Shown: piece by piece, positions 4,316-45,192 of the stretch
Layout: every line of letters begins with the position of its first letter
Numbering within the stretch: the stretch's first letter is position 1
Assembly (NCBI RefSeq): GCF_014280035.1
Contig: NZ_CP047957.1
Location: 1,674,001-1,738,000, forward strand
From: Synechococcus sp. A18-25c
Lineage (GTDB): Bacteria; Cyanobacteriota; Cyanobacteriia; PCC-6307; Cyanobiaceae
Length of the DNA: 64,000 bases
Reading direction: 5' to 3'
Translations under genes and position numbers: made by a program
The notes under the pieces: generated by a model
The model's database searches: none
What the model saw: only the letters and a program-made list of their open reading frames with translations
Told to the model about the DNA's origin: nothing

Positions 4316-4443
4316 GGCAATCCTGCACTCTTCTATTGGACCCAACGGCTGCAAGCGTGACGGATCAGCATGGAAGCGAATTCTCAAAAATGTTGCCGGT
4401 CATGCAACAAATCAATGCTTCATTATTTCGATCGGTTCAATGC

Positions 4444-4689
4444 TCAAATATTTTGTTGCGCACAGGTTCCACAACCGACTGACCACCAGAAAGACCTGCC
4501 TCCAGCACCAGCCACCTCTTCAAGCTCCTCTTCGCGAAGCTGGCTGATCTTGTCAGAAGTGAAATCATGACCATGATCTTTCGCGATAGCTACAACTTCA
4601 TCGGGCGATTTAGCCGCTTTGAGTATCTCCTGAAGGCGAGAGTCGACTTTGACCTTTTCAAGGAAGGCCTTGAGTTGCTCTTCTGACAT
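4444..4689 (-). CDS. Nif11-type leader peptide precursor with Cys/Ser core (lanthipeptide-like)
   Basis: An 81-residue precursor. Residues 1-60 are a Nif11-type leader starting MSEEQLKAFLEKVKVD and ending EELEEVAGAGG. The part after the double glycine is RSFWWSVGCGTCAQQNI, with two Cys and three Ser/Thr, the composition of class II lanthipeptide cores such as prochlorosins. In that known system a single ProcM enzyme dehydrates Ser/Thr and couples them to Cys, and the leader is cut after the glycine pair. No such enzyme is in this window, so modification would be in trans. It is very close in leader sequence to the copies at 35.0-38.1 kb although 30 kb away. Confidence 0.85.
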   Translation of the reverse strand: MSEEQLKAFLEKVKVDSRLQEILKAAKSPDEVVAIAKDHGHDFTSDKISQLREEELEEVAGAGGRSFWWSVGCGTCAQQNI

Positions 4690-5185: not shown

Positions 5186-5401
5186 TTAATTGTATTCACC
5201 GGGCGTTTCCTGCTTGGAGACAGTGACACAACCCACTGTTTGCCTGGAGAAACGAGGCAACGCATCGCCTGCAAACTCGTAACCCAATTCAGCCGCGATC
5301 TTGGCAACATCATCGGCTGTCGCCGCAGCCAACACAAGAGCCTTGCGATTGGGATCGTCCTGCAGACGCACTAGAAATGTCCTCAGCTGTTCAAGCGCCA
5401 T
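5186..5401 (-). CDS. Nif11-like small protein with PGEY tail, 71 aa
   Basis: The ATG at 5401 gives MALEQLRTFLVRLQDD, the start of a Nif11-like helical domain, with DDVAKIAAELGYEFAGD as its second half. Unlike the double-glycine precursors it has no GG site. It ends VGCVTVSKQETPGEYN, and the same tail pattern (GVxVTxxxxPGEY) recurs in the protein at 6874. I therefore see these two as one subfamily that may not be a cleaved precursor. Role unknown. Confidence 0.75.
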   Translation of the reverse strand: MALEQLRTFLVRLQDDPNRKALVLAAATADDVAKIAAELGYEFAGDALPRFSRQTVGCVTVSKQETPGEYN

Positions 5402-5680
5402 GGTTGGTCGCCACTGCAGTCCATCCACGCCCAAGCAAGGATGACTTCAGTTCCTACCCGAGCAGGATGAGGTGAAGCAGGCGCACCCAATCAAAGGTTG
5501 AGCACAGTCCCTACGCATCAGACAGCCATCAAGCAACTCAGGATCGTCAGCTGCTGAACAAACACACCCACATTTGTAGGAAGAGCAATGATCGTGCTCG
5601 ATGATTCATTCCTGTAAAGCGCATTGAATTCACCTCATTAGCCATGGCAAAATCGGTGGGCAGATCATGACACTTAAATC

Positions 5681-5944
5681 ATGAGCACTGAAAAGCTCAG
5701 AGAGGAAGCCCTCGCTCGCCTCAAGCATCGAAAAGGCCTGAAAAAACAGTTTCAAACCTATGTGATCACGAACCTCACACTGATCGTGATCTGGGCACTG
5801 TCAGGCCAAGGAGATTTCTGGCCGGCCTGGCCGATTGCATTCTGGGGTCTAACCCTGCTTTACCAAGCATGGTCGTTTGAGCATCCTGACAAACCAATTA
5901 GCAGCCAAGACATTGAGCGTGAAATGAATCGAATGAAGTCTTGA
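5681..5944 (+). CDS. 2TM-domain membrane protein, 87 aa
   Basis: Begins with a basic amphipathic helix (EEALARLKHRKGLKKQF), then two hydrophobic segments at about 28-42 and 49-66 separated by a short GQGDFWPAW turn, and a charged tail. This order, a basic helix before two spans with a WP turn, matches the small 2TM domain family that also occurs at the start of some histidine kinases. As a stand-alone 87-residue protein its function is unknown. A region of about 245 nt without genes precedes it. Confidence 0.75.
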   Translation: MSTEKLREEALARLKHRKGLKKQFQTYVITNLTLIVIWALSGQGDFWPAWPIAFWGLTLLYQAWSFEHPDKPISSQDIEREMNRMKS

Positions 5945-6078
5945 AACAACCCTGGTGTCACCACATCGGCTTAATGCTGATGAATGGCGTTTGACACAAC
6001 ACGTCATCGCCAGGCTCAATTTAATGTGCGTTGAGTGTCACCTCAGGCAAGACAATTTGCATCTCGATGTCAGTCAAT

Positions 6079-6270
6079 TCACTGTTCTGATGCTGTCCGA
6101 GCAGCGTCAACAATGGAATACTCGATGCGTTCGTCCGAACAGCACAAACCTGCATAGAAGCGTTCTAATTCGTCATAAGCCTCGTTGTAATGGCTGTAGT
6201 GCCTGCGCGTGATTGCGTCCTGTTGGCCGTCATCCCGCACGATTCTGATCAACTGAATGGGCTCGGGCAT
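6079..6270 (-). CDS. small conserved hypothetical protein, 63 aa
   Basis: The ATG at 6270 gives MPEPIQLIRIVRDDGQ, a plausible N-terminal strand, followed by ITRRHYSHYNEAYDELERFY and a C-terminal region with two cysteines in GLCCSDE. The frame stays open upstream to 6438, but the extension is Arg/Cys/Ser-rich and looks noncoding. It resembles small accessory proteins of marine cyanobacteria only in size; I assign no function. Confidence 0.5.
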   Translation of the reverse strand: MPEPIQLIRIVRDDGQQDAITRRHYSHYNEAYDELERFYAGLCCSDERIEYSIVDAARTASEQ

Positions 6271-6507
6271 CACGGCATCCGAAGAGGAACGAACACAGAT
6301 TCTGGAGTCCAAAACATCTAGACGACGCTTCGGGTTCTGCTTCAGCAGGATCTTTGGCAACGATGGACTAGCGATGCAACCTCGCTGCGCGAGATCTTGG
6401 ATGTGGCAACGACGTGAGCACCCATCGCGTTCACGCATGTTATGGCCAAGACCTATTGCTGATCCAACCTCACATCCAGAGGGATCTCAAAGGGGAGTAA
6501 GTGGTGC

Positions 6508-6690
6508 ATGGTCCACAAGCTCGACGACGTCCGGATTGACACAGAAGGGGCGGATCTGGTGGTTGAACTGGAAGCCGAATCAGAACTCCACCTCCAGCAT
6601 CTGCTTGCAAGGGTCGCTGCGAATCTCGGAGAAAAACTTGGGATAGACACCATCCCAGCGGGAACCAAAAGGGCAAGCGACCCCGTCTGA
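6508..6690 (+). CDS. small acidic hypothetical protein, 60 aa
   Basis: ATG at 6508 is preceded by AGGGGAG about ten bases upstream, a good ribosome-binding site. The product has an acidic amphipathic middle (VVELEAESELHLQHLLARV) and no Cys. The opposite strand is also open in this region, with a Ser/Arg-rich frame of 161 codons, which I read as the shadow. Function unknown. Confidence 0.45.
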   Translation: MVHKLDDVRIDTEGADLVVELEAESELHLQHLLARVAANLGEKLGIDTIPAGTKRASDPV

Positions 6691-6873
6691 TTGACAGCGA
6701 TGAATCCACCCTGCTGGCCTGACCCTGCGATGCCGGCGACAACTCCCATCAGGTTCTCGATGATGGAAATCTCGATGAAATCTTCACCGGTTTGGCATGT
6801 CTGCTCGTCCTTCCTGGGGTGTCGACCAGCGTGGCCATGGCAGCACCTTGGCCATGGCCTCGATCTGTTGCGT

Positions 6874-7101
6874 TCAGTAGTAACGGCCTGGATATTCCCC
6901 AGGATGATCGACGCGAGTGACACGAACACCGGGTGCATGTCGACCCGACAGCATCAACAGATCACTACCCGAAACGGCGTAACCAAGCTCCTGAGCCAAC
7001 AAGGCCACCTCATCCGCGGTCACCGCAGCCTCAACCTTCACCTGGAGCACGGGGTCACGTCCCAAATGCTCCAGGAAACGTTGAACGGGCGTTTTGGTCA
7101 C
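6874..7101 (-). CDS. Nif11-like small protein with PGEY tail, 75 aa
   Basis: Begins with a GTG at 7101 (MTKTPVQRFLEHLGRD). The two-helix Nif11-like domain is followed by ADEVALLAQELGYAVSGSD and the tail GVRVTRVDHPGEYPGRYY. No GG cleavage site and no Cys, so it is not an obvious lanthipeptide precursor. It shares the GVxVT...PGEY ending with the protein at 5186, 1.5 kb away on the same strand; the two are probably paralogues. Their role is not known to me. Confidence 0.72.
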   Translation of the reverse strand: MTKTPVQRFLEHLGRDPVLQVKVEAAVTADEVALLAQELGYAVSGSDLLMLSGRHAPGVRVTRVDHPGEYPGRYY

Positions 7102-15471: not shown

Positions 15472-15942
15472 TTGAGCCAATCCTCGACGCAACAGCGACA
15501 ACTCGTCCCGGGCTTATCGATCCACGGAGCCTGGCAGCTGGTGAGCTACGAAGTGGAAGTTAAATCCAGCGGTTTGATGTTCAATCCAATGGGTCAAAAA
15601 CCGAGTGGCTACGTTATTTTTACCCCCGAAGGTCGTGTTTCATTCACGCTGACAGCAGAAAATCGGCAAGCGCCTGAGAGCGTCCAAGACAATGCCGATT
15701 TATTCAACAGCATGATCGCTTACACAGGCACCTTTCGACTCAGTGGCAATCAATGGGTGACCCACGTGGATGCTGCATGGAACCCTCAATGGGTCGGCAC
15801 GGAACAAACCCGATATTTTTTAATTGAAGGTGACAAACTTGTTGTTCAAACACCCTGGCGTGTGATGCCGAACTGGCCCGACAAAGGTTTAACGCGCAGC
15901 ATCGTCTGCTTCCAACGCTGTCAGAGTAACTTCAAGAGTTAA
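15472..15942 (+). CDS. lipocalin-like domain protein, 156 aa
   Basis: The product resembles the small lipocalin-like family (PF13924-type): SIHGAWQLVSYEVEVKSSG, then GYVIFTPEGRVSFTLTAENR, IAYTGTFRLSGNQWVTHVD and NPQWVGTEQTRYFLIEGD. These strands with the initial G-x-W form a calycin barrel that may bind a small hydrophobic compound. The start is a TTG (SQSS follows) at 15472 with GAGGT about twelve bases upstream; no ATG is available before the first conserved strand. The 3' end overlaps the convergent membrane gene by 11 nt. Confidence 0.75.
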   Translation: MSQSSTQQRQLVPGLSIHGAWQLVSYEVEVKSSGLMFNPMGQKPSGYVIFTPEGRVSFTLTAENRQAPESVQDNADLFNSMIAYTGTFRLSGNQWVTHVDAAWNPQWVGTEQTRYFLIEGDKLVVQTPWRVMPNWPDKGLTRSIVCFQRCQSNFKS

Positions 15943-16192
15943 CGGAAGGGCTTGTGGTGCCCCCGCAATCATGGCGGGGCTGATACCCCTGAGATTCCGC
16001 CAAATAGCGCAGGTACACGATCTGACGCCGATCGGGCAGACCTGCAGCAGCAATAAGACCTAACCAACCAAAGATCAGACCAGCCCAAAACCACTTCGTG
16101 CTGCTGCGGGCTTTCTGAGCAGCAATTGTTTTGGCAAAACAAGCGCTGACCACATGGGTCACAACAACAACGACAGGAAGCAACCAGTCCAT
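15932..16192 (-). CDS. small two-span membrane protein, 86 aa
   Basis: ATG at 16192 begins directly with a hydrophobic helix (MDWLLPVVVVVTHVVSACF), then a basic loop KTIAAQKARSSTKWFW and a second helix WAGLIFGWLGLIAAAGLPD. The tail is polar. This is the layout of small superinfection-immunity/Imm-like membrane proteins, but the similarity is only general. Function unknown. Confidence 0.55.
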   Translation of the reverse strand: MDWLLPVVVVVTHVVSACFAKTIAAQKARSSTKWFWAGLIFGWLGLIAAAGLPDRRQIVYLRYLAESQGYQPRHDCGGTTSPSVNS

Positions 16193-16297
16193 CCAGCACA
16201 CAACAACACGCCTCAAAGGGGATAGCCATCCAAATCGCGGTTGTCAGCCTTCATGCAATCTGATTGCACAAGAAGGCAAGCTCAAAGGTCCTGCTGA

Positions 16298-17107
16298 TCA
16301 CGACGGGGGCAGCAAAGGCTCGTACATCATCAATGCATGATTCTCAACCAGCATGTGCTCTGAGATCACCCCGTGTTGATCGTGCTCAATGCGATGAATC
16401 TGGTTGTGCCTTGAATAGCCACCCCATATCTGTTGCTTAATCTCATGGAAGCGCTCTTCAACGGAAAACGTCGACTGGTAATCGAAATCGCAGTAGAGCG
16501 AACCATTCAAAAATGATGAATCCAGCCAAAGGCGGAAAGAAAACCGATAAGGAGTGTTGTTAGTGATCTGAAAATCGATGTAGTTGTAGGCGAGTGTCGC
16601 TCCGGCACCAAACGGGACTGATCGATTGAGATCTGGGAATACATCGTAACCATGACGCCATCTCTCAGTGATTGTCAAAGGACTGTGGGCTGCCATCCAA
16701 AACAGAAGATTGCCGAGCTGACAAAGACCACCGCCAATCCCTTCAGAGATCAGCCCGTGGCGCAACACCAATCCCTTTAAATATCCCTTTCTCCGCGTCG
16801 GGCGTCCCACTAGCTTCCAAAAAGAGAATGTCTCGCCTGGTTGGATCACGATCTGATCGATGCGAGCCGTCGCCAGCTCTAAATTTCGACGCTTATTCAG
16901 TTGCAATGTGGGGTCAACACCAGGCAAAGGCCTCAAAACCACTGAGCGATGCTGAAATTTAAGGAATGCAGGACATAACTCACCCCGCTGATCAGACCAA
17001 ATCTTTCGAGATCGATACCAGCGCAATTTGCGTCTGAGAATAAAGAATTCCCGACCCATCAATTGTCGATACCACCGGCGATGAACGGGGACAGGAATTT
17101 CAAACAT
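16298..17107 (-). CDS. VanW family protein, 269 aa
   Basis: VanW-type proteins are cell-envelope associated, often near peptidoglycan genes, with no settled reaction. The signature is present: NLELATARIDQIVIQPGETF, then SFWKLVGRPTRRKGYLKG, and GGGLCQLGNLLFWMA, followed by HGYDVFPDLNRSVPFGAGAT and YIDFQITNNTPYRFSFRLW. No signal peptide or membrane segment is seen. The start at 17107 gives a basic N-terminus (RRWYRQLMG) usual for the family, and the length is close to that of the short VanW group. It stands alone; the regulatory region is between 17108 and 17190. Confidence 0.9.
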   Translation of the reverse strand: MFEIPVPVHRRWYRQLMGREFFILRRKLRWYRSRKIWSDQRGELCPAFLKFQHRSVVLRPLPGVDPTLQLNKRRNLELATARIDQIVIQPGETFSFWKLVGRPTRRKGYLKGLVLRHGLISEGIGGGLCQLGNLLFWMAAHSPLTITERWRHGYDVFPDLNRSVPFGAGATLAYNYIDFQITNNTPYRFSFRLWLDSSFLNGSLYCDFDYQSTFSVEERFHEIKQQIWGGYSRHNQIHRIEHDQHGVISEHMLVENHALMMYEPLLPPS

Positions 17108-34504: not shown

Positions 34505-34591
34505 GGAGAGGTGGTCGAGTGGTTTATGGCTCTGGTCTTGAAAACCAGCGTGTCTTCACGGGCACCGTGGGTTCGAATCCCACCCTCTCCG
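34505..34591 (+). tRNA. tRNA-Ser(TGA)
   Basis: The acceptor stem GGAGAGG (34505-34511) pairs with CCTCTCC (34584-34590), with discriminator G at 34591. The anticodon stem CTGGT/ACCAG encloses the loop with TGA at 34539-34541. A long variable arm of serine type follows, then the T-arm GTTCGAATCCC. CCA is not encoded. It is the intact copy of a sequence whose 3' part is repeated at 36031 and, decayed, near 40366, which marks it as an integration site. Confidence 0.95.
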
Positions 34592-34624
34592 CTCTGAAAG
34601 CCCAGTCAGTGACTGGGTTTTTTA
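34533..34624 (+). repeat. direct repeat copy 1: tRNA-Ser 3' part plus terminator
   Basis: Ninety-two bases from the anticodon stem through the tRNA terminator recur without change at 36031-36122 (offset 1498). A tRNA 3' end repeated downstream is the standard sign of site-specific integration or duplication at the tRNA. Confidence 0.9.
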
Positions 34625-34764
34625 TTGTTTTCAATCGTCTGACTAACCCCATCAATCAGCCTTCAATACCTGGCACCATCGCCCGCACTTCGTGGGCTTT
34701 TTTATTAGATACAGACATCGTTGCCGTCCGTTGCTATGACCAGGCTGTAGCTCCACGCCCTCCA
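34591..34764 (+). repeat. intergenic peptide cassette, copy a
   Basis: Order: terminator hairpin, TTTTTTATTG, CAATCGTCTGACTAACCCC, the phrase CAGCCTTCAATACCTGGCAC, CATCGCCCGCAC hairpin with T run, ATACAGACATCGTTGCCG, GTTGCTATGACC and a GCTGTAGCTCCACGCCCTCC leader ending at the ATG of the peptide gene. The same order recurs at 37697 and 40019, and in part at 35271, 36886, 37271, 38185 and 39005. Confidence 0.85.
34601..34623 (+). terminator. terminator of tRNA-Ser
   Basis: CCCAGTC and GACTGGG form a seven-bp stem around a short loop, followed by TTTTTT. It lies ten nt after the tRNA end and is part of the repeated block. Confidence 0.8.
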
Positions 34765-34944
34765 ATGTCTGAAGAGCAGACCAAGAAGCAGGAAATCAAG
34801 GAAGAGTCAGCTGAGGAAGAGCTGCTCAAGAATGAGTTGACAGAAGACGAGCTGAAGGATGTTAGTGGTGGTACAGGTATGACTGAGCAGTCAGTTAACA
34901 ACTGGATTGACGAAAGAATTCACTTTCTTGACCCATCAGCATAA
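34765..34944 (+). CDS. double-glycine leader peptide with short acidic leader, 59 aa
   Basis: ATG at 34765 is directly after the conserved cassette leader. The product begins MSEEQTKKQEIKEESAEEEL, a charged segment without the usual Nif11 helices, and continues NELTEDELKDVSGG before the core TGMTEQSVNNWIDERIHFLD. SGG is the likely cleavage site. The core has no Cys and is mixed acidic/aromatic, so a lanthipeptide is unlikely. It shares its first residues with true Nif11 precursors, suggesting a leader that lost its middle. First peptide gene after the tRNA. Confidence 0.75.
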   Translation: MSEEQTKKQEIKEESAEEELLKNELTEDELKDVSGGTGMTEQSVNNWIDERIHFLDPSA

Positions 34945-34997
34945 GAGGCAGAGGAGCAATAACACTCTTAGTTCTAAACCTGTATTCACTGTATTTT

Positions 34998-35249
34998 ATG
35001 TCAGAAGAGCAACTCAAAGCCTTCCTGGAGAAGGTCAAAGGCGACACCAGCTTTCAGGAAAAGCTCAATACAGAAGGAGCTGATTTTGTTGCTATTGTTG
35101 CTATTGCAAAGGCTGCAGGGTTTTCGATCACCACAGAAGACCTAAACTCTCATAGACAGGTGGAGCTTAGTGATGATGAGCTTGAGGCTGCGGCTGGGGG
35201 TTGGAATATGGATTGGTTTACTCATTACCATCCACCAGCATGCCGCTAA
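34998..35249 (+). CDS. Nif11-type leader peptide precursor, core with one Cys
   Basis: An 83-residue precursor. The leader MSEEQLKAFLEKVKGD and its later helices (VAIAKAAGFSITTEDL) are the Nif11 domain; the leader ends VELSDDELEAAAGG. The core is WNMDWFTHYHPPACR, with one Cys, one Thr and several aromatics, so at most one thioether could form. It lies 53 nt after the preceding peptide gene without a full cassette. A terminator follows at 35276. Confidence 0.85.
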   Translation: MSEEQLKAFLEKVKGDTSFQEKLNTEGADFVAIVAIAKAAGFSITTEDLNSHRQVELSDDELEAAAGGWNMDWFTHYHPPACR

Positions 35250-35275
35250 CCTCTCTGGTAGCCTAGCCCTCAAAG

Positions 35276-35299
35276 CCCCTGCATTGACAGGGGTTTTTT
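35276..35299 (+). terminator. terminator after the peptide gene at 34998
   Basis: CCCCTG and CAGGGG form a six-bp stem, followed by TTTTTT. It begins the partial cassette at 35271-35345 that has the TATTGCTTCAATAGTCTG motif. Confidence 0.8.
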
Positions 35300-35350
35300 A
35301 TTGCTTCAATAGTCTGAATAATCTAATGTTCAATCAGGCGCAACGCACCT

Positions 35351-35644
35351 TTGAAAGCTCTTCTGCTCGTAACAGCACTAATGGTGTCTGCTCTACCAGT
35401 TAAGGCACAAGACGACCCTACTCCCAGAGAAAAGGGTTACTACATTTATGGGAATGTTTTAGGCACGGGTAGCACTTTGTGTGAAGCAGTAGCAAATAAC
35501 CAGATGACAAGGGATTTTGCGAGACGTTATTTTTCTTCTGTAACCGCAGAACTAGCAAAAGCACCAGAGACCCAAGATTTTGTGTCTGCGATTCAACAAG
35601 CGTCAAGCGAAATAGCAAATAGCTGTGAAGACGTCTTTAAATAG
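35351..35644 (+). CDS. exported small protein within the peptide island, 97 aa
   Basis: Begins with a TTG at 35351, the only start before the signal peptide MKALLLVTALMVSALPVKAQ, cut likely after KAQ. The mature part of about 77 residues has two cysteines (TLCEAV near 43 and NSCEDV near 93), which could form a disulfide in the periplasm, and an amphipathic helix FVSAIQQASSEIANS. Signal and end are clear, function unknown. It sits between a Nif11 precursor and the second tRNA-Ser repeat, in the island. Confidence 0.65.
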   Translation: MKALLLVTALMVSALPVKAQDDPTPREKGYYIYGNVLGTGSTLCEAVANNQMTRDFARRYFSSVTAELAKAPETQDFVSAIQQASSEIANSCEDVFK

Positions 35645-36318
35645 AAAGGAGTAGCGAAACTGTGGAACTTATCTACTTTGACCCTTGGCGTCACCGGCTT
35701 CCGCGTGAGCTAATCAAGGTGACTTTTTGAACTCGTCAGACTGGGATAGAAGCAATCGCTCCATGGCTGACACCAGCACCAAATCCGCTCCAAAGAGCAA
35801 AACCCGGAATCCCTGGGATCCCATCCCCCCTCGATCGCTGCCGGTCAGCGAGAACTGCACCAGGACAACTGATCTGATCATCCCCTCCGTTCAGGAGCGA
35901 ACCACCGCCAGTTGATCGGCAGCCGCACCTCGCTGGTCTTTCAAACCAGCTGGAGAGGCATTTATGCCACGTTTTTATGCCACACCATCGCTTCAGGGAC
36001 CAAAACTCCTGCTGTGACTGACTTATCTTTTGGTCTTGAAAACCAGCGTGTCTTCACGGGCACCGTGGGTTCGAATCCCACCCTCTCCGCTCTGAAAGCC
36101 CAGTCAGTGACTGGGTTTTTTAATGCCTGACTGCATTCTCAGCGACTGGTGCTGGGGGTGTCGCCCTGGCATGCGACCGATGCGCAAGTGGCTCTTTAGT
36201 GGCTCAGCCCAGAGCGTTTGAGTCGTTGAAGCCGCTGCCAGCCAGACCCAAGCCCTTTAGCTGACAATCGGCTTCAGCAGTCATCCAACACTGTTATCAA
36301 ATCGCTATCGATTGCCTG
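35645..36318. other. gene-poor block with fragments and the second tRNA repeat
   Basis: It holds several short pieces. A GTG frame at about 35662-35730 follows AAAGGAG and reads like FDPWRHRLPRELI before a stop. A Ser/Pro-rich frame (35763 on: MADTSTKSAPKSKTRNPWDP) ends in a stop at 35915. From 35953 the block is homologous to 40289-40440. No intact gene is recognised. Confidence 0.5.
36031..36122 (+). repeat. direct repeat copy 2: tRNA-Ser 3' part plus terminator
   Basis: Exactly the same 92 bases as 34533-34624. The 5' half of the tRNA is missing and is replaced by unrelated sequence (TTATCTTTT before the repeat), so no tRNA is made. Upstream bases 35953-36030 match the block upstream of the decayed third copy. 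Confidence 0.9.
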
Positions 36319-36858
36319 TTGCCTGTTGTGGCAAATGCCAACTGGTACGACTACCTCGATTTGGATCGCTTTTGGGAGACGACGCCAGTAAAGAAACCAG
36401 AAGATTGTGATTGCGATAAGCCAGGGACCCTCACCGACTCTCTGATCGGGTCTCTTGAAAGCTTCGTTGGCAAAGAGGCAAAAGACGACGAGATCATAGG
36501 CGCCGAAAGCCTTCCGAGAACTCCTCAAGGATGGGGTGTGAGATGGCGCCCTGAATGGTTCCCAGATGGCGCAGAGAGAAATCTCGTTGATGCAAACCTG
36601 CGCTGGGCGGACCTGAGGGGAGCAGACCTGTGGCGTGCGGACCTGTGGCGTGCGGACCTTGTTCGTGCGGACCTGAGGGGTGCCGACCTGGATAGTGCGT
36701 TCCTGTGGGGTGCGAACCTGAGGGGTGCGGACCTGAGGGGTGCGCTCAATTTGGATCCTGCTGCAGATTTCGCGATTTGGTTCCAAACAACCTGCCCGGA
36801 CGGCAGTCTGAGTATCGGCAATTGGCCTTGTTTTGGAGATCAGCTAATTCCTTTCTGA
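36319..36858 (+). CDS. pentapeptide-repeat protein, 179 aa
   Basis: Residues 88-145 form about eleven tandem A(D/N)LxX repeats (RWADLRGADLWRADLWRADL and following), predicted to fold as a right-handed quadrilateral beta helix. The first 80 residues are ordered and contain CDCDKPG. The C-terminus TTCPDGSLSIGNWPCFG is typical of cyanobacterial pentapeptide proteins and has two Cys. The start is a TTG at 36319; a GTG at 36328 is the alternative. The repeated DNA (GTGCGGACCTG units) suggests recent expansion. Confidence 0.8.
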   Translation: MPVVANANWYDYLDLDRFWETTPVKKPEDCDCDKPGTLTDSLIGSLESFVGKEAKDDEIIGAESLPRTPQGWGVRWRPEWFPDGAERNLVDANLRWADLRGADLWRADLWRADLVRADLRGADLDSAFLWGANLRGADLRGALNLDPAADFAIWFQTTCPDGSLSIGNWPCFGDQLIPF

Positions 36859-36885
36859 GCATCGACGCACAAGGGCTGAATGCTG

Positions 36886-36929
36886 CTGCAGACCGTTGCT
36901 ATGACCAGGCTGTAGCTCCACGCCCTCCA
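36886..36929 (+). repeat. partial cassette (leader only)
   Basis: The leader GTTGCTATGACCAGGCTGTA plus GCTCCACGCCCTCC directly before the ATG at 36930 equals that before 34765. Terminator and linker parts of the cassette are absent; the pentapeptide gene lies directly upstream. Confidence 0.75.
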
Positions 36930-37271
36930 ATGTCCAAAGAGCAGCTCAATGCCTTTCTAGAAAAGGTCAAAGGCGACACCAGCCTTCAGGAAAAGCTCAA
37001 TGCACCAACCACTCCTGAAGCTGTTATTGAACTCGCCAAAGACGCAGGGTTTGCCATTACCGCAGAAGATATTCTGTCAATGCAATCGACAACGGAAGAA
37101 GTGTCAGATGACGAGCTTGAAGTTGCAACTGGCGGATTGGTGGAGGTCACTCTCGCTTCGCCTACTACGCCTACAACTTCGCCTACGGTTATAACTAGGG
37201 TTAGACACAACAGGACTCCGCTTACGCCGAGGACGCCCAGCTCTCCCGCGCCTGCACCGATCATTAAATAA
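36930..37271 (+). CDS. Nif11-type leader precursor with long Thr/Pro-rich core
   Basis: A 113-residue precursor, the longest in the island. The leader (MSKEQLNAFLEKVKGD, then VIELAKDAGFAITAEDI) ends EVSDDELEVATGG at residue 69. The core of 44 residues is LVEVTLASPTTPTTSPTVIT followed by repeats rich in Thr, Pro, Ser and Arg. With no Cys, lanthionine rings cannot form; dehydrated Thr/Ser, glycosylation or a different fate are possible. The leader identity to the Cys-containing precursors suggests the same processing enzyme. Followed by a terminator at 37298. Confidence 0.85.
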   Translation: MSKEQLNAFLEKVKGDTSLQEKLNAPTTPEAVIELAKDAGFAITAEDILSMQSTTEEVSDDELEVATGGLVEVTLASPTTPTTSPTVITRVRHNRTPLTPRTPSSPAPAPIIK

Positions 37272-37382
37272 GCCAGCCTTCAATACCTGGCACCATCGCC
37301 CGCACTTAGCGGGCTTTTTTGATTGCTTGCAGACATCGCTGCCGACCGTTGCTATGACCAGACTGTAGCTCCACGCCCCCCC
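37271..37382 (+). repeat. intergenic peptide cassette, copy c (without first hairpin)
   Basis: Contains the CAGCCTTCAATACCTGGCAC phrase, the CCCGCACTTAGCGGG hairpin with T run, CAGACATCGCTGCCGACCG, and the GTTGCTATGACC leader ending at the ATG of the gene at 37383. Confidence 0.85.
37298..37320 (+). terminator. cassette terminator after the gene at 36930
   Basis: GCCCGC and GCGGGC form a six-bp stem followed by six T. The same hairpin recurs in each complete cassette with small changes. Confidence 0.85.
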
Positions 37383-37625
37383 ATGTCAGAAGAGCAACTC
37401 AAAGCGTTCCTGGAGAAGGTGAAAGGCGACACCAGTCTTATGGAGAAGCTCCAAGCTGCAGCCTCCCCTGAAGCCGCTATTGAAATTGCTAAAGACGCAG
37501 GCTTTGCAATTACCGCAGAAGATATTCAATCAATGCAATCGGCAACGGTAGAAGTTTCAGACGAGGAGCTAGAGGGCGCAGCTGGCGGTAATCGGCGACG
37601 AGGGAGCTGGAGGTGCAAGAGGTAA
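37383..37625 (+). CDS. Nif11-type leader precursor with short Arg-rich core
   Basis: An 80-residue precursor with leader MSEEQLKAFLEKVKGD through EVSDEELEGAAGG. The core is NRRRGSWRCKR, only 11 residues with one Ser and one Cys, enough for a single thioether ring; the six basic residues are unusual. Leader and ATG context match its neighbours at 36930 and 37864. Stop at 37623. A terminator of the cassette follows at 37702. Confidence 0.85.
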   Translation: MSEEQLKAFLEKVKGDTSLMEKLQAAASPEAAIEIAKDAGFAITAEDIQSMQSATVEVSDEELEGAAGGNRRRGSWRCKR

Positions 37626-37696
37626 TGATAGGAGCGTGAGGGTGTAATGCAATGAGCTGGTGAGGATCCTTCAGGTAATGGATCCTAAAGCGCTCC

Positions 37697-37863
37697 CAAA
37701 GCCCCTGAATTGACAGGAGTTTTTTATTGCTTCAATCGTCTGACTAACCCCTTCAATCAGCCTTCAATACCTGGCACCATCGCCCACATTTAGCGCGCTG
37801 TTTTATAACTCACTGACACCGCTGCCGACCGTTGCTATCACCAAGCTGTAGCTCAGCCCTCCA
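37697..37863 (+). repeat. intergenic peptide cassette, copy d (complete)
   Basis: Terminator, TTTTATTGCTTCAATCGTCTG, the CAGCCTTCAATACCTGGCAC phrase, a degenerate second hairpin (TTTAGCGCGCTG), CCGCTGCCGACCG and the GTTGCTATCACC leader to the ATG at 37864. The leader has lost four bases (CACG), leaving GTAGCTCAGCCCTCC. Confidence 0.85.
37702..37725 (+). terminator. terminator after the gene at 37383
   Basis: CCCCTG and CAGGAG form a stem with one mismatch, followed by TTTTTT. Confidence 0.7.
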
Positions 37864-38124
37864 ATGTCAGAAGAGCAACTCAAAGCGTTCCTGGAGAAGA
37901 TCCAAGGCGACACCAGTCTGCAGGAAAAGCTCAAGGCAGCAACCTCCGCTGAAGCTACTGTTGAAATCGCCAAAGACGCAGGCTTTTCAATTAGCGCAGA
38001 AGATATTCAATTAATGCAATTGGCAACGGTAGAAGTGTCAGACGATGAGCTGGAAGGTGCGGCTGGTGGCAGGCGCCGGACTGGTAAGTTGTCGGTGGTG
38101 TGTTGTACAAATGTATGTGGTTAG
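37864..38124 (+). CDS. Nif11-type leader precursor with Cys-rich lanthipeptide-like core
   Basis: An 86-residue precursor. The leader is MSEEQLKAFLEKIQGD through EVSDDELEGAAGG. The core RRRTGKLSVVCCTNVCG has three Cys and three Ser/Thr, the best lanthipeptide-like core in the window: two or three thioether rings could form. Known prochlorosins have similar leaders and diverse short cores, all processed by one ProcM. The leader is nearly identical to those at 36930 and 37383, so the three arose by tandem duplication, with only the core diverging. Confidence 0.88.
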   Translation: MSEEQLKAFLEKIQGDTSLQEKLKAATSAEATVEIAKDAGFSISAEDIQLMQLATVEVSDDELEGAAGGRRRTGKLSVVCCTNVCG

Positions 38125-38297
38125 AATTCTTTCTGTCGCTAGGACCGTTGTCAGACCAGAGCAGGATTCAAGCCTACGCTCTCATCAAAGCCCCTACATT
38201 GACAGAGGCTTTTTATTGCTTCAATAGCCCAACCAACTCCTCCAATCAGCCTTCAATATCTAGCAGTAACACCCGTATTAAATTTCGACCTATACAC

Positions 38298-38315
38298 AAG
38301 TAATGCGCATTACTT
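38298..38315. other. 18-bp perfect palindrome
   Basis: AAGTAATGCGCATTACTT reads identically on both strands. It lies in a spacer with no gene, 170 nt after the peptide gene at 37864. It could bind a dimeric regulator; no T tract follows, so it is not a terminator. Confidence 0.6.
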
Positions 38316-38376
38316 AAACGGAGGCTGGTTCAAGCGCAGCGTCAATGCTCGTGATTGACGGTGTTCTGCTGTTCAC

Positions 38377-38553
38377 TCAGCCACCAGGCTTACGTCTGTT
38401 TCTAGGGATGATGAACTCATCTGCCAAAGCCAGAGCATCACTCCCACGCTGCTCTGCGATGAGCTGCTCAACCCGGTCATCCCACCAGCGGATGGTCTCA
38501 GGTTTCAGTCCCTTACTGTTCTCGTTGCTTGGCTTCTCCTCACCGCAGGCCAT
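38377..38553 (-). CDS. small hypothetical protein in the island, 58 aa
   Basis: ATG at 38553 gives MACGEEKPSNENSKGLKPET and the helix-like IRWWDDRVEQLIAEQRGSDA, ending in a basic PRNRRKPGG. It is the only minus-strand gene candidate inside the island. Composition is credible, but no ribosome site is seen and the function is unknown. Confidence 0.4.
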   Translation of the reverse strand: MACGEEKPSNENSKGLKPETIRWWDDRVEQLIAEQRGSDALALADEFIIPRNRRKPGG

Positions 38554-38918
38554 TGCCGCGCTGCAACAGCGTCCAGTCAAGTGTTTTTTAACCGTAGACC
38601 GTGGCTGATGTCGCCTGACCATGACGCAAGCGCTCCGGCTGTCACCAACTCAGGTGGTGAGGCTGTTCGGCTGTTGTGAGCGCCACTGCTCCTGCCGCGT
38701 AGTAAAGCAGCTATGGAAACAACGGACGAGACTGTTTTGAAGCAAAACTGAGACTGCGAAACCTGACAAAGACTGACAAGCTTCTGAAAGGGTAGATCCG
38801 TTCTAGGGTTCTCTAATGCGGCTGCGGACCTTCTTGATGTCGTGGCGCTTGCTGCGATTGCTGGTGGCACTAGAAGCAAAGCTGGCCGCTGCTGAAAAGA
38901 GGAAGCGCATGCCGATCA

Positions 38919-38987
38919 CTGGGGTCGTTGCCCTGGCATGCGTCCCATGCATAAGTGGCTTGTTTGGTAGCTCACCCCAGAGCATTT
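38919..38987 (+). repeat. repeat of the block at 36152-36219
   Basis: The block CCCTGGCATGCG with GCATAAGTGGCT and CCCCAGAGCATTT matches the block at 36152-36219 (CCCTGGCATGCGACC, GCAAGTGGCT, CCCAGAGCGTTT) with a few differences. In one frame both encode a similar short ending, RPGMRP(M)xKWL, so a decayed duplicated gene end is likely. Confidence 0.6.
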
Positions 38988-39004
38988 CAGCTGTTGGTGC
39001 TGTT

Positions 39005-39045
39005 ACCGACCGTTGCTATGCCAGGCTGTAGCTCCACGCTCTCCA
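39005..39045 (+). repeat. partial cassette (leader only), copy g
   Basis: TACCGACCGTTGCTATGCCAGG and GCTGTAGCTCCACGCTCTCC precede the ATG at 39046, with one base missing and one changed relative to copies a and e. Confidence 0.75.
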
Positions 39046-39204
39046 ATGTCAGAAGAACAGGTCAAGAAGCAGGAAGCCATAGAAGAGACAACTAAGGCAG
39101 AGCAGGTGAAGGAAGAGTTGAATGAGGAGGAATTAAAGGGTGTTGATGGAGGCGCCTATTATCCAAACTTTGACGGTAGCGACTGGCACTATGAGGATCA
39201 ATGA
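39046..39204 (+). CDS. double-glycine leader peptide with charged leader, 52 aa
   Basis: Begins MSEEQVKKQEAIEETTKAEQ, an acidic/basic segment without Nif11 helices, then NEEELKGVDGG and the core AYYPNFDGSDWHYEDQ. The core is acidic and aromatic with no Cys and a single Ser. The leader resembles that of the peptide at 34765 (both have MSEEQxKKQE and end in ELKxVxGG), so these two form one subgroup. Function unknown. Confidence 0.75.
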   Translation: MSEEQVKKQEAIEETTKAEQVKEELNEEELKGVDGGAYYPNFDGSDWHYEDQ

Positions 39205-39289
39205 CTGAGAGATGCCATAAACAAAAACCGTTCCTTTGTTGCATTTGCAACTTCGTTAATATGGTTTTAGCAACCCTCTGAACTCCACC

Positions 39290-39460
39290 ATGGAAGACCC
39301 AAAAAACATCAAGGACGACATTTCCGATAAAGAACTGGAAAGTACCAGCGGTGGTCTCCGGCATAGGGATAGAGAAATCCCTGAAAGGATTCGGCAAAGG
39401 AACAGGGAGATACAAGGAAGGTTTCGGGTAAGAATGAGAGAGATTCCAGGTGATGAATAA
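39290..39460 (+). CDS. short-leader double-glycine peptide with Arg-rich helical core, 56 aa
   Basis: A 56-codon gene, ATG at 39290, stop at 39458. The leader is only 22 residues, MEDPKNIKDDISDKELESTS then GG. The 34-residue core is rich in Arg, Glu and Ile with a repeating REI pattern (REIPERIRQRNREIQGRFRV and a final MREIPG), which fits an amphipathic, strongly basic helix. This is the pattern of a cationic bacteriocin-like or membrane-active peptide; activity is inference. The upstream leader GGTTTTAGCAACCCTCTGAAC matches that before 39506. Confidence 0.7.
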   Translation: MEDPKNIKDDISDKELESTSGGLRHRDREIPERIRQRNREIQGRFRVRMREIPGDE

Positions 39461-39505
39461 GAAAGGTTCGTTGCTATGGTTTCAGCAACCCTCTAAACAC
39501 CAATC

Positions 39506-39688
39506 ATGGAAGAGAAGAAAAGTATCAACGCAAACATTTCTGAAGAAGAATTAGAAAGTGTCACTGGTGGCAACGACTTGTCAGCAGAAGAGAGGCGAGT
39601 TGGACTCCCGGTGCGCGGGCAGCGAACCCGCACAAATGCGCAAACCCGTCGCGGACCTCGCGTGACGCAGGGCGGAATTATCAAGTGA
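39506..39688 (+). CDS. short-leader double-glycine peptide with basic core, 60 aa
   Basis: The leader [20 protein letters not shown] ends in GG at residues 21-22; it is the same kind as at 39290 (ISxxELESxxGG). The core of 38 residues is [20 protein letters not shown] followed by a run rich in Arg, Thr, Gly and Gln and ending GGIIK. No Cys. It lies 45 nt after the stop of 39290, with a repeated 5' leader of its own (GGTTTCAGCAACCCTCTAAAC). Confidence 0.75.
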
Positions 39689-39732
39689 AAACTTCAAAAC
39701 CTTTAGTGTCAGTAACCCTCTGAACTTCACAA

Positions 39733-40006
39733 ATGTCAGAAGACCGGTTGAAAGCCTCCTGGAAAAAGTTAAATCAAATACCGAATACTGGAAAAGCGCA
39801 AAGCAGCAACCACGCCTGGAGCTGCTCTTGAAATCGCCATTGAAGCTGGGTTTTTAATTACCGTAGAAGATGTTCGATCTATGAAATCGCAATTGAGAGA
39901 AGTGTCAGACGAGGAGCTGAAAGCTGATGCTGGCGGCGATCAACGGAGTCAGCGGAGCTGGGACTCCTGTTGGGGGAGGTGGGTATGTTGCACTGAGCTC
40001 GGCTGA
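39733..40006 (+). pseudogene. decayed Nif11 precursor with lanthipeptide-like core
   Basis: An ATG at 39733 starts MSEDRLKAS, but the leader is broken by at least two single-base deletions. In the restored frame from about 39790 the leader continues RKAATTPGAALEIAIEAGFL and ends REVSDEELKADAGG, with core SWDSCWGRWVCCTELG near the end (three Cys, several Ser/Thr). It has the short 5' leader seen at 39290/39506 rather than the GTTGCTATGACC leader, and lacks a normal stop position. Confidence 0.8.
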
Positions 40007-40018
40007 AAGATGCGCCCT

Positions 40019-40188
40019 CAAAGCCCCCTGCATTGACTGTGGTTTCTTATTGCTTCAATACTCTGACTAATCCCAACAATCAGCCTCCAATATCTGGCAC
40101 CATGACCTGCACTTAGCGGGCTTTTTTATTAGATACAGACATCGCAGCCGAACACTGCCATGACAAGGCTGCAGCTCCACGCCCTCCA
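40019..40188 (+). repeat. intergenic peptide cassette, copy h (complete, partly decayed)
   Basis: TCAAAGCCCCCTGCATTGAC, TTCTTATTGCTTCAATACTC, CAGCCTCCAATATCTGGCAC, the GCACTTAGCGGGC hairpin with T run, ATACAGACATCGCAGCCG and the leader ending GCCCTCC before an ATG at 40189. Confidence 0.8.
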
Positions 40189-40256
40189 ATGAAGAAGAGC
40201 AGCTCAAAGCGTTCTGGGAAGCCATTCAATCAAATCCTGAGCTTCAAAAAAGCTGA
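40189..40256 (+). pseudogene. truncated Nif11 leader remnant
   Basis: Directly after the cassette an ATG is followed by a shifted frame. In the frame starting at GAAGAGCAGCTC the product is EEQLKAFWEAIQSNPELQKS before a stop at 40254, clearly the first third of a Nif11 leader. Two bases (TC) of the normal MSEEQ start are missing. The remainder of the gene is lost. Confidence 0.8.
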
Positions 40257-40290
40257 GCGGCGTCACTGACCAGTCTTAATGATCAACGGG

Positions 40291-40445
40291 AGGCATTGAT
40301 ACTACGCCTTGATGCCACACCATCGTTTTAGGGGCCAAAACATGGCTGTAACGAGCTTTATCAGCGGTCTTGAAAACCAGCCTGTCTTCACGGGCACCGT
40401 GGACTTGAGTTCCAACCTCTCTATTTAAAATCCTGGTCAATGAGC
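40291..40445 (+). repeat. decayed third copy of the tRNA-Ser repeat and its upstream block
   Basis: TGATGCCACACCATCGTTTT and GGGGCCAAAAC match the block at 35953-36030. From 40366 GGTCTTGAAAACCAG and TGTCTTCACGGGCACCGTGG match the tRNA-Ser repeat, then it diverges (GACTTGAGTTCCAACCTCTC). The terminator stem is mutated. It is an old island boundary or an earlier duplication. Confidence 0.8.
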
Positions 40446-43854: not shown

Positions 43855-45192
43855 TCAAATCGGGACTGGATCAAATACGAAGGTGGGCTGACCAGGACAA
43901 AGACCGTTGATGGGGTCCTCAACTGAGCCGTCAGGCATCACTGTGTTGCAGAAGATCGTCGACGCATCCGTCAAGGCACCACGAAGATCGGCGTCAGTTA
44001 AATCAAGGTTGGTCAGGTTCGCCCCACGTAAATCCGCGCCACGAAAATCACCATTGATGGCATTGGCGTCTGTGAGATTCGCACCTCTCAAATCCGCATT
44101 CCTGAAATCCGTGGCGAGTAAGTTGGTGAAGCGAAGATCAGCATTCAAAAAACTGGCATCCATGAGATCGGCGGTGGCCAGACTTGAGAAATTCCAGTTG
44201 GTGTCGTCAAAAACAGCGCCCTGAGCGGAAGAACCTGAGATCGACCCATTAACAAAGTCAGCACCAATAGCAATTAGGTCATCCAGCTGTGATGCGACAA
44301 ACGATGTTCCACCCAGATCAGCACCGGTGAGATCAGCATCACGGAAGTCGCTGCCATCAAGCGAAAGATCACTCAAGTTGAACCCAGAGAGATTGCGTCC
44401 TCGAGCATTGGTACCAGAGACCAACGCCAACCCCCTGCGAAGTTTGGTTCCATAGGCGAACCGGCCTGGTGTTTGCTCTTGCAGTGCTGCGGTGTAAATC
44501 ACACTATCAGGATCCACTTCAAGAACCGAGTCTTTCGCGCCAAACAACACCTGTTCCTGGGAATTCTTAGAAGAGCTAAGAACGATGCCATTGGGCATAA
44601 TTGTTTCATCCAAAATCGCGCCTTTGAACGTTTCTCGGTCAAACTTGGCACCGTAAAATGTGCATCCGCTGAGCACAACACCCTCAAAGTTGGTCCCGCG
44701 CAGGTCGGAGAACTGAAATCCAGTGTCTTGAATGATTGATTCAGTGAAATTGGCGTTCCTCAGATTACCGAAATCAAAGGTGCTTCCAACGATTTGGGCT
44801 CCACGGAGATCGGCGTCTTGAAGATCAACATTGGAGTTATCCATCAACACCATCTGAGCTTCCCGCAGATCAGCTCCAGCGAGATCCGCTTGCGCAAATG
44901 ACGTAATCGACAACAAGGCATTTCGAAAGGAGACATCACTGAAGTCTCCAAACGAAATCGAACCCGCCTGCAGATTCACATCATCAAGATTGCTCCCGGA
45001 GAAATCACTGAATGCAAGGAACGCTCCTTGAAAATAAGACCCCTTCAGATCAAGATTTTGTGCCTGTACGCCAGGACCAGCGGGTATGCCATCAACAACT
45101 TCTCCAGCCTGAACCTGCCTTCCAGAATAAATTTCAATCAGCTTGTAATAAGGATTGTTTGGCTTAACGCTTAATTCTTTGTGGCTAGACAT
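43855..45192 (-). CDS. large pentapeptide-repeat protein, 445 aa
   Basis: Two blocks of A(D/N)LxX/F repeats lie at about 45-190 (starting VQAQNLDLKGSYFQGAFLAF) and 265-410 (ARGRNLSGFNLSDLSLDGSD), split by a non-repeat segment at about 195-260 (MPNGIVLSSSKNSQEQVLFG). Each block is predicted to fold as a right-handed beta helix. The C-terminus has CNTVMPDGSVEDPINGLCPG, like the ending of the smaller protein at 36319. No signal peptide is seen. Function unknown; such proteins can inhibit gyrase or serve as scaffolds. Confidence 0.85.
   Translation of the reverse strand: MSSHKELSVKPNNPYYKLIEIYSGRQVQAGEVVDGIPAGPGVQAQNLDLKGSYFQGAFLAFSDFSGSNLDDVNLQAGSISFGDFSDVSFRNALLSITSFAQADLAGADLREAQMVLMDNSNVDLQDADLRGAQIVGSTFDFGNLRNANFTESIIQDTGFQFSDLRGTNFEGVVLSGCTFYGAKFDRETFKGAILDETIMPNGIVLSSSKNSQEQVLFGAKDSVLEVDPDSVIYTAALQEQTPGRFAYGTKLRRGLALVSGTNARGRNLSGFNLSDLSLDGSDFRDADLTGADLGGTSFVASQLDDLIAIGADFVNGSISGSSAQGAVFDDTNWNFSSLATADLMDASFLNADLRFTNLLATDFRNADLRGANLTDANAINGDFRGADLRGANLTNLDLTDADLRGALTDASTIFCNTVMPDGSVEDPINGLCPGQPTFVFDPVPI

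Follow-up and report, generated by a model that had tools for sequence, protein, structure and literature searches.

A tRNA-Ser island of Synechococcus sp. A18-25c is a pair of mobile double-glycine peptide arrays and carries a core derived from ribosomal protein S13

Our analyses of Synechococcus sp. A18-25c confirmed an island of peptide genes with double-glycine (GG) leaders at the gene for tRNA-Ser(TGA) and resolved it into two clearly delimited mobile GG-peptide arrays. The island lies inside the window, a stretch of 64,000 nucleotides at 1674001-1738000 in a genome that forms one contig of 2,511,360 bases; nrdJ (B12-dependent ribonucleotide reductase insertion domain) and tRNA-Ser(tga) sit 5′ of it. 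The component parts are of known kinds, and prochlorosin arrays and a tRNA-Met island with nif11 genes (described 2009) are already known. New are a core derived from ribosomal protein S13, a clean break between leader and core, and recurring tRNA-bounded units of GG genes. Below, G000 is this genome, other G-numbers are genomes of relatives, L-numbers are extracted loci, and island genes are cited by their first window position. Transfer RNAs were called by ARAGORN, tRNA copies were found by BLAST and families were assigned with Pfam and NCBIfam profiles. GG precursors of this genome were collected by pattern and by hand, and those of relatives by pattern.

Two Tandem Insertions at tRNA-Ser

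Copies of the tRNA 3′ half, overlooked in the initial annotation, border the array. The boundary features are:

34505..34592, +, tRNA-Ser(tga) (ARAGORN), target of the insertions; the unit that recurs is the 3′ half (34533-34592)
35955..36030, +, right end of insertion A; ~55 bp beside the tRNA piece are common to insertion B and the G024 element
36031..36125, +, copy of the tRNA-Ser 3′ half and terminator, 94/95 bp; tRNA bases 60/60 identical (36031-36090)
40290..40365, +, right end of insertion B, resembling that of insertion A
40366..40421, +, diverged copy of the tRNA-Ser 3′ half, 49/56 (87.5%), continuing into the native flank seen in G021

The two right ends are 74% identical to each other, and the A and B ends are 71% and 73% identical, respectively, to that of the G024 element, whereas 300 shuffles per comparison gave at most 67%, 63% and 65%. 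An empty site was found in the relative G021, in which an intact, near-identical tRNA is followed directly by the flank that succeeds the last repeat in the window (83% identity between window 40366-40443 and this native flank). The island thus has two marks of a tRNA-targeting element, direct repeats of a tRNA 3′ end bounding the insert and an empty site in a relative. In G024, three pattern-called GG genes with different cores lie between tRNA-Ser and its 3′-half copy. We examined the nrdJ/tRNA-Ser loci of 20 relatives, three of which were represented by stretches of only 4-10 kb. Sixteen held no GG precursor by the pattern used and no second tRNA copy; the remaining 4 held different GG precursors, with a second tRNA copy in 1 of these. 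The peptides are therefore not fixed across relatives, as expected from the array that the initial annotation had proposed.

It is quite improbable, in our judgment, that homologous recombination, duplication or insertion sequences, and not tRNA-targeting integration, distributed the tRNA copies. The tRNA-Ser island has no recombinase, and in Prochlorococcus MIT9313 the presence of nif11 genes in a tRNA-Met island is explained by insertion sequences (PMC2784084), both of which favour such a process; however, the copies here begin inside the tRNA, run through its 3′ end and share one orientation, element-specific ends lie beside them, the tRNA-Arg island described below holds an integrase remnant, and no transposase match was found among ten island open reading frames (ORFs) scanned.

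Two relatives provided further observations. At the tRNA-Ser locus of G010 (L062), just the first 42 bases of tRNA-Ser(tga) were found, with no ARAGORN tRNA call in the stretch; here, an insertion seems to have split the tRNA without restoring its 3′ half. In G024 (L063:1316-1705 and from ~4440), the bases after the tRNA and those after its copy both look, by eye, like a gene for a small secreted protein of nuclease type, as though a copy of this gene stood at the start of each unit. Phage cargo was also considered as a source of the island genes and rejected for the phage and viral collections searched: tblastn of the 36930 precursor against 50,697 phage records gave no match, and viral contigs scanned with the 39506 and 37383 proteins gave pattern matches of which none was confirmed.

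Conserved Leaders and Unrelated Cores

Between tRNA-Ser(TGA) and window position 40421, we found 8 intact and 2 broken GG-leader genes with unrelated cores, the intact ones all on the + strand; the initial annotation had counted at least seven intact and two broken. The genes of the island are:

34765..34944, +, short-leader (36 residues) GG peptide, core TGMTEQSVNNWIDERIHFLDPSA, Cys-free; below every family cut-off
34998..35249, +, Nif11-leader GG peptide, core WNMDWFTHYHPPACR; Nif11 58.9 bits, TIGR03798 83.4 bits
35351..35644, +, candidate secreted 97-residue ORF, TTG start; no family match in profile scans
36319..36858, +, pentapeptide-repeat ORF with TTG start, carried by insertion B as cargo; Pentapeptide 77.2 bits
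36930..37271, +, Nif11-leader GG peptide, Thr/Pro-rich Cys-free core; Nif11 66.8 bits
37383..37625, +, Nif11-leader GG peptide, core NRRRGSWRCKR; Nif11 64.8 bits
37864..38124, +, Nif11-leader GG peptide, core RRRTGKLSVVCCTNVCG; Nif11 64.9 bits
39046..39204, +, short-leader (36 residues) GG peptide, acidic-aromatic core AYYPNFDGSDWHYEDQ
39290..39460, +, short-leader (22 residues) GG peptide (LRHRD gene), Arg-rich core
39506..39688, +, short-leader (22 residues) GG peptide, core holding a piece of the S13 tail; TIGR03631 E 1.6e-7
39733..40006, +, frameshifted (broken) Nif11-leader gene
40189..40258, +, truncated Nif11 remnant; weak Nif11 match at G000 1714194-1714262

The leaders fall into two classes. 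Those of the four intact Nif11 genes are 68-69 residues long and score 58.9-66.8 bits with the Pfam Nif11 profile (cut-off 23.8), and all four score 83.4-90.4 bits with TIGR03798 (cut-off 32.3), the family of Nif11-leader precursors of ribosomally synthesized and post-translationally modified peptides. The short leaders comprise two of 36 residues (MSEEQxKKQE...) and two of 22 residues (MEExKxI...). None of them reaches the cut-off of any family. With TIGR03798, 34765 and 39046 score 13.1 and 13.3 bits and 39290 and 39506 give no match, and the short leaders remain under the cut-offs of the class II GG bacteriocin families TIGR01847, TIGR03949 and PF10439 (e.g., 14.1 vs 15.7 and 16.7 vs 21.5).

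The view that leaders are conserved while cores are free to vary was borne out at the DNA level. Among the four Nif11 genes, leader DNA has a mean identity of 78% (52% when shuffled), and core DNA is at shuffle level (52% vs 56% shuffled). The ratio of nonsynonymous to synonymous substitution (dN/dS) in leaders is ~0.15-0.27 for three pairs. Conservation extends upstream: a stretch of ~58 bp upstream of the start is 87-93% alike between the Nif11 and the 36-residue-leader genes of the island, and the motif TTG[CA]TAT stands 32-35 bases before the start of 6/8 island genes.

A Sister Module Breaks at the GG Codons

A paralogous module (L046) at ~1451 kb, ~260 kb away, contains in the same order a 36-residue-leader gene, a broken LRHRD gene and the next 22-residue-leader gene. 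Over the segment that starts with the LRHRD core and ends at the GG codons of the following gene, island and L046 are identical in 184/219 columns (84%), specifically in 97/105 (92%) for the LRHRD core and 54/69 for the next leader. Beyond those GG codons, identity falls to 47/118 columns in a forced alignment, and the cores are unrelated. The occurrence of one leader with two different cores in paralogous modules supports the recombining array postulated by the initial annotation.

One Core Contains a Piece of rpsM

The core of 39506-39688 matches NCBIfam uS13_bact (TIGR03631) with an expectation (E) value of 1.6e-7; this S13 piece had gone unnoticed in a core initially described as Arg-rich. 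At the DNA level, the match is:

39605..39661, +, 57 in-frame rpsM bases; 53/57 to G024 rpsM, E 7.3e-18

The 57 bases are identical to rpsM at 53 positions in G024, 52 in G016, 50 in G003 and 49 in G001. The rpsM of the same genome was rejected as the source, with 45/57 against 53/57 for G024. As the S13 tail has an identical protein sequence in all 28 rpsM genes found in the genus, the substitutions in the peptide would be post-capture or come from a donor outside those 28. Counted from this segment on, peptide and S13 reach their stops after equal numbers of codons, but only 14-15 of the final 27 bases are the same. Leaders like MEDPKNIKDD... are present in G016 and G024, the genomes with the rpsM nearest the captured piece, which suggests that the S13 gene may have arrived with a module of G016/G024-like leader.

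Leader and S13 piece were found together in no other genome among 31 searched by profile and 400 searched by DNA, the count of one in 400 being weakened by the few candidates scored per genome. Weak S13 matches were obtained by profile among the 31 genomes in G044, G010 and G045 (E 0.06-0.31). When genome contigs were scanned with the S13 gene, the best 80 of 240 confirmed loci mostly matched residues 31-57 only, as ordinary S13 does; among these 80, none was in a recognisable near relative, and a few aligned from residue 1-4 on with 37-49% identity. This restriction to one genome (1/31 by profile; 1/400 by DNA, subject to the same limit) would fit a convergent match or an assembly artefact, yet we consider either hardly credible, given 57 in-frame bases that are 93% identical to the rpsM of another genome and closer to it than to the resident rpsM, in a gene that lies within one contig and in a module with a paralogue. 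The literature searched contained no report of a ribosomal-protein core or of tRNA-linked prochlorosin arrays, PMC2784084 (tRNA-Met island) apart, and the S13 core looks new in the searchable literature.

Two Leader Classes and a Single LanM

The two leader classes differ in the chemistry open to their cores. In loci of relatives, Cys is missing from 12/135 long-leader cores vs 20/27 short-leader cores (Fisher p 6e-12); these counts omit six "short" leaders that resemble Nif11 fragments or have a doubtful frame, and with the six included, 20/33 short-leader cores are Cys-free (p 1e-9). In the A18-25c genome, the corresponding numbers are 1/35 Nif11 cores and 7/8 short-leader cores (p 2e-6). 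Because cores within one genome are not independent, all of these p values are guides. The combination of Nif11 and non-Nif11 leaders in one array, which the initial annotation regarded as unusual, was rejected as a special feature: both kinds occur in 11/24 loci of relatives (13/24 before the six leaders were dropped).

This genome gave 56 Nif11 matches at E up to 1, 49 of them above the Pfam cut-off, and encodes one LanM (single LANC match; TIGR03897 737.9 bits, cut-off 304). The LanM carries a ProcM-type CCG motif, read in the translation, as in the prochlorosin system. Its gene adjoins genes for HlyD, a C39 ATP-binding cassette (ABC) protein, an ABC protein and a putative TolC-like protein, the last named from sequence reading. 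Two more C39 and ABC pairs are located at ~1122 and ~2302 kb, and NHLM_micro_ABC1 is the best NCBIfam match of all three C39 proteins. With a fourth at 106973, the genome has four C39 matches, and these and the LANC match all lie outside the window, from which the initial annotation had already noted that synthetase and exporter were missing; the genome-wide search it proposed thus recovered one CCG LanM and three NHLM-like C39 systems. Among 31 genomes of the genus, 12 have a LanM above the cut-off. The earlier idea of one trans-acting lanthionine synthetase stands in that a single LanM is present, but it does not extend to the short-leader peptides, which are mostly Cys-free (7/8) and so could not form lanthionines; LanM would account only for Cys-containing cores. 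Two kinds of chemistry are predicted to come from one and the same arrays, Cys-rich peptides with Nif11 leaders and Cys-free peptides with short leaders.

These data also bear on whether old insertions have decayed here into a relic from which peptides are no longer made, a reading that we regard as unlikely. Such decay could be read from the two broken precursors, the lack of an integrase, the diverged outer tRNA copy (87.5%) and the broken sister copy of LRHRD in L046. Eight frames are nevertheless intact, leader dN/dS is ~0.15-0.27, the LanM and C39 genes are intact and the inner tRNA copy matches at all 60 bases, all of which speak against a relic.

The Same Plan at Other tRNA Loci

The largest array of the genome, with 14 precursors, lies 3′ of tRNA-Arg(tct). 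The 3′ half of this tRNA has three further copies (98%, 90% and 90% over 48, 61 and 48 bases), two ends of the island share 120 bp at 77.5%, and a remnant within the island matches the recombinase at genome position 932679 (E 4e-13; no Pfam match). Further arrays are found on the 3′ side of transfer-messenger RNA (tmRNA), tRNA-Lys and tRNA-Ala, and tRNA-Val is followed on that side by just one gene; no tRNA copies were detectable at these four loci. Altogether, the genome has 49 GG precursors, some broken, in 12 loci, 5 of which lie <=4 kb 3′ of a tRNA or tmRNA compared to 0.79 expected (13/20,000 random placements were as high). This test used 44 tRNAs plus the tmRNA and a fixed 4-kb rule. 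It does not count the array 2.0 kb 3′ of tRNA-Ala (1886-1891 kb), because 10-kb clustering merged this array with a gene beyond that tRNA; the version restricted to multi-gene loci, in which 4/5 and not 5/5 obeyed the rule, was not used.

Extra copies of the tRNA-Arg 3′ half also occur in relatives. Among 20 array stretches from seven relatives, chosen by array and not by tRNA, 5 (in G045, G016, G024, G010 and G018) contain such copies, with 92-100% identity over 45-50 bases and 1 to 9 GG genes between tRNA and copy. In G016, the copy and the intervening genes are on the 5′ side of the called tRNA, and its island is thus arranged differently.

Three 90-residue proteins of the A18-25c tRNA-Arg island (L038:8994-9266, 15840-16112 and 16116-16388) end in ...DDFELDAVALAAIAGG plus 6-8 residues, two of them with GSGC or KGSC and one with WNGC. 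They are another GG-leader family with a short core; Pfam scans of two of the three gave no Nif11 assignment. Elsewhere, a tyrosine recombinase (G000:349613-350116) is encoded ~3.4 kb from a solitary Nif11 gene (345990-346212) for which no in-frame start was found.

A Model for Array Spread and Core Replacement

We think it fairly probable that these observations reflect a single scheme. Two tandem elements targeting the tRNA-Ser(TGA) 3′ half, inserted by integrase activity, would have carried in the GG-leader peptide genes. Each gene would act as a cassette with a conserved leader, often a conserved upstream block, and an exchangeable short core after the GG codons. Once the genes are expressed, the single LanM probably acts in trans on those Nif11 precursors whose cores contain Cys. 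Cleavage after GG and export are, for every GG precursor, the probable task of the C39-peptidase ABC transporters encoded at other loci; short-leader peptides that lack Cys would be released with no lanthionine rings. The usual route to a new core would be replacement of the DNA directly behind the GG codons, and in one gene the incoming DNA was a fragment of another Synechococcus-type rpsM.

Several observations weigh against this scheme. The tRNA-Ser island contains no integrase, and the only PF00589 matches of the genome are at positions 349613 and 932679. A DNA search for the element ends in 151 genomes of the family, a sample that may not include G024, returned the two ends themselves and one short match, with no clear further copy. 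By the fixed rule, 7/12 GG loci of this genome are not near a tRNA, and 12/20 array stretches of relatives hold no tRNA (8/20 do). Cys is present in three of the four intact Nif11 cores of the island, that of 36930 being Cys-free, and only the C39 protein at ~2302 kb passes the NHLM_micro_ABC1 cut-off of 853 (993 bits; the others score 701 and 590). In relatives, TTG[CA]TAT precedes 63/135 Nif11-type genes and 2/33 short-leader genes (background ~2-3%); shared control of both classes would therefore be a feature of the tRNA-Ser island that may not be general. Finally, in a scan of 112 cores of >=20 residues for captured sequences, only the S13 core had a convincing NCBIfam or Pfam family. The 112 cores are 22 from this genome, S13 included and those of <20 residues being outside the scan, and 90 of the 94 found in relatives, three near-duplicates and one doubtful frame having been left out. 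The best weak matches of other cores were to DUF1612 (E 0.0014) and BC1881 (E 0.0025), and these were treated as chance because 22 and 91 members were scanned. One core in 112 with a convincing donor means that capture may be rare. As the profile libraries would miss donors that are short, out of frame or poorly conserved, the S13 core stands as one proven case and not as a rate.

The scan leads to an alternative with some real chance of being right, although we lean against it: point mutation and small indels, with selection either relaxed or diversifying, may account for most of the divergence among cores, and the S13 piece would then be a single accident. The 111 other cores without a convincing donor are in keeping with this idea, as is the available text of PMC10783134, which proposes insertion-deletion events in cores together with horizontal transfer. 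Gradual divergence does not readily produce a break at the GG codons between modules otherwise 84% identical, or foreign rpsM sequence in frame, and the libraries would not detect short captures whose source DNA was poorly conserved or out of frame. More tentatively, replacement at the GG codons might be carried further, with tRNA islands serving as travelling libraries for core capture. In this view, tRNA-targeted elements would bring along finished export leaders, and recombination at the GG codons would trap fragments of ordinary genes, in this case the S13 tail of another cell, that are then exported as new peptides, most other cores having arisen in the same way and left no trace; we regard this as rather doubtful.

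Relation to Known Systems

Tycheposons (Hackl et al. 2023) are reportedly small picocyanobacterial elements at tRNA genes that carry cargo; the tRNA-Ser island differs in being without an integrase. The genes also resemble prochlorosins and synechococsins (ProcA/SyncA with ProcM/SyncM): in both, Nif11 leaders terminate in (D/E)ELExxxGG and precede cores unlike one another, precursors are numerous and spread across the genome, and there is one LanM with a CCG motif. In contrast to those systems, short-leader, mostly Cys-free GG peptides share the arrays here, one Nif11 core is Cys-free, the units are tRNA-bounded and in tandem, and one core is of rpsM origin. In the available text of PMC2784084, the Prochlorococcus MIT9313 island at tRNA-Met and ansA resembles ours as a tRNA island with several pseudo-tRNA pieces and nif11-domain genes; there, insertion sequences and a phage site are described, whereas here the sites are tRNA-Ser and tRNA-Arg, with defined ends, an empty site and occurrence in several genomes. 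The available part of PMC10783134 treats prochlorosin diversity, the CCG LanM, and integrases and transposases near some clusters, and the word tRNA is absent from its main text. From what is available of PMC3140520, many cyanobacterial GG precursors fall outside the two named families. EbfG and PteB of Synechococcus elongatus (PMC4997328, in the text available) are likewise a case of small GG-motif proteins, whose secretion is helped by a C39 peptidase transporter, and GG peptides and transporter act there in biofilm formation; unlike these, the present genes are in a mobile array.

With one core whose donor gene can be named and a pair of modules that part exactly at the GG codons, the origin of the very diverse prochlorosin-type cores becomes testable on any collection of complete genomes, and tRNA-bounded units would offer a route for the spread of peptide libraries between picocyanobacteria.

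Other Features of the Window

Further Nif11 genes lie in the window outside the island, on the - strand at 4439-4689 and 5267-7095; one is a GG precursor (core RSFWWSVGCGTCAQQNI) and two have a conserved GEYN/GEYPGRYY tail. Pentapeptide-repeat proteins are encoded both in insertion B (36319-36858) and in the nearby flank (43855-45192).

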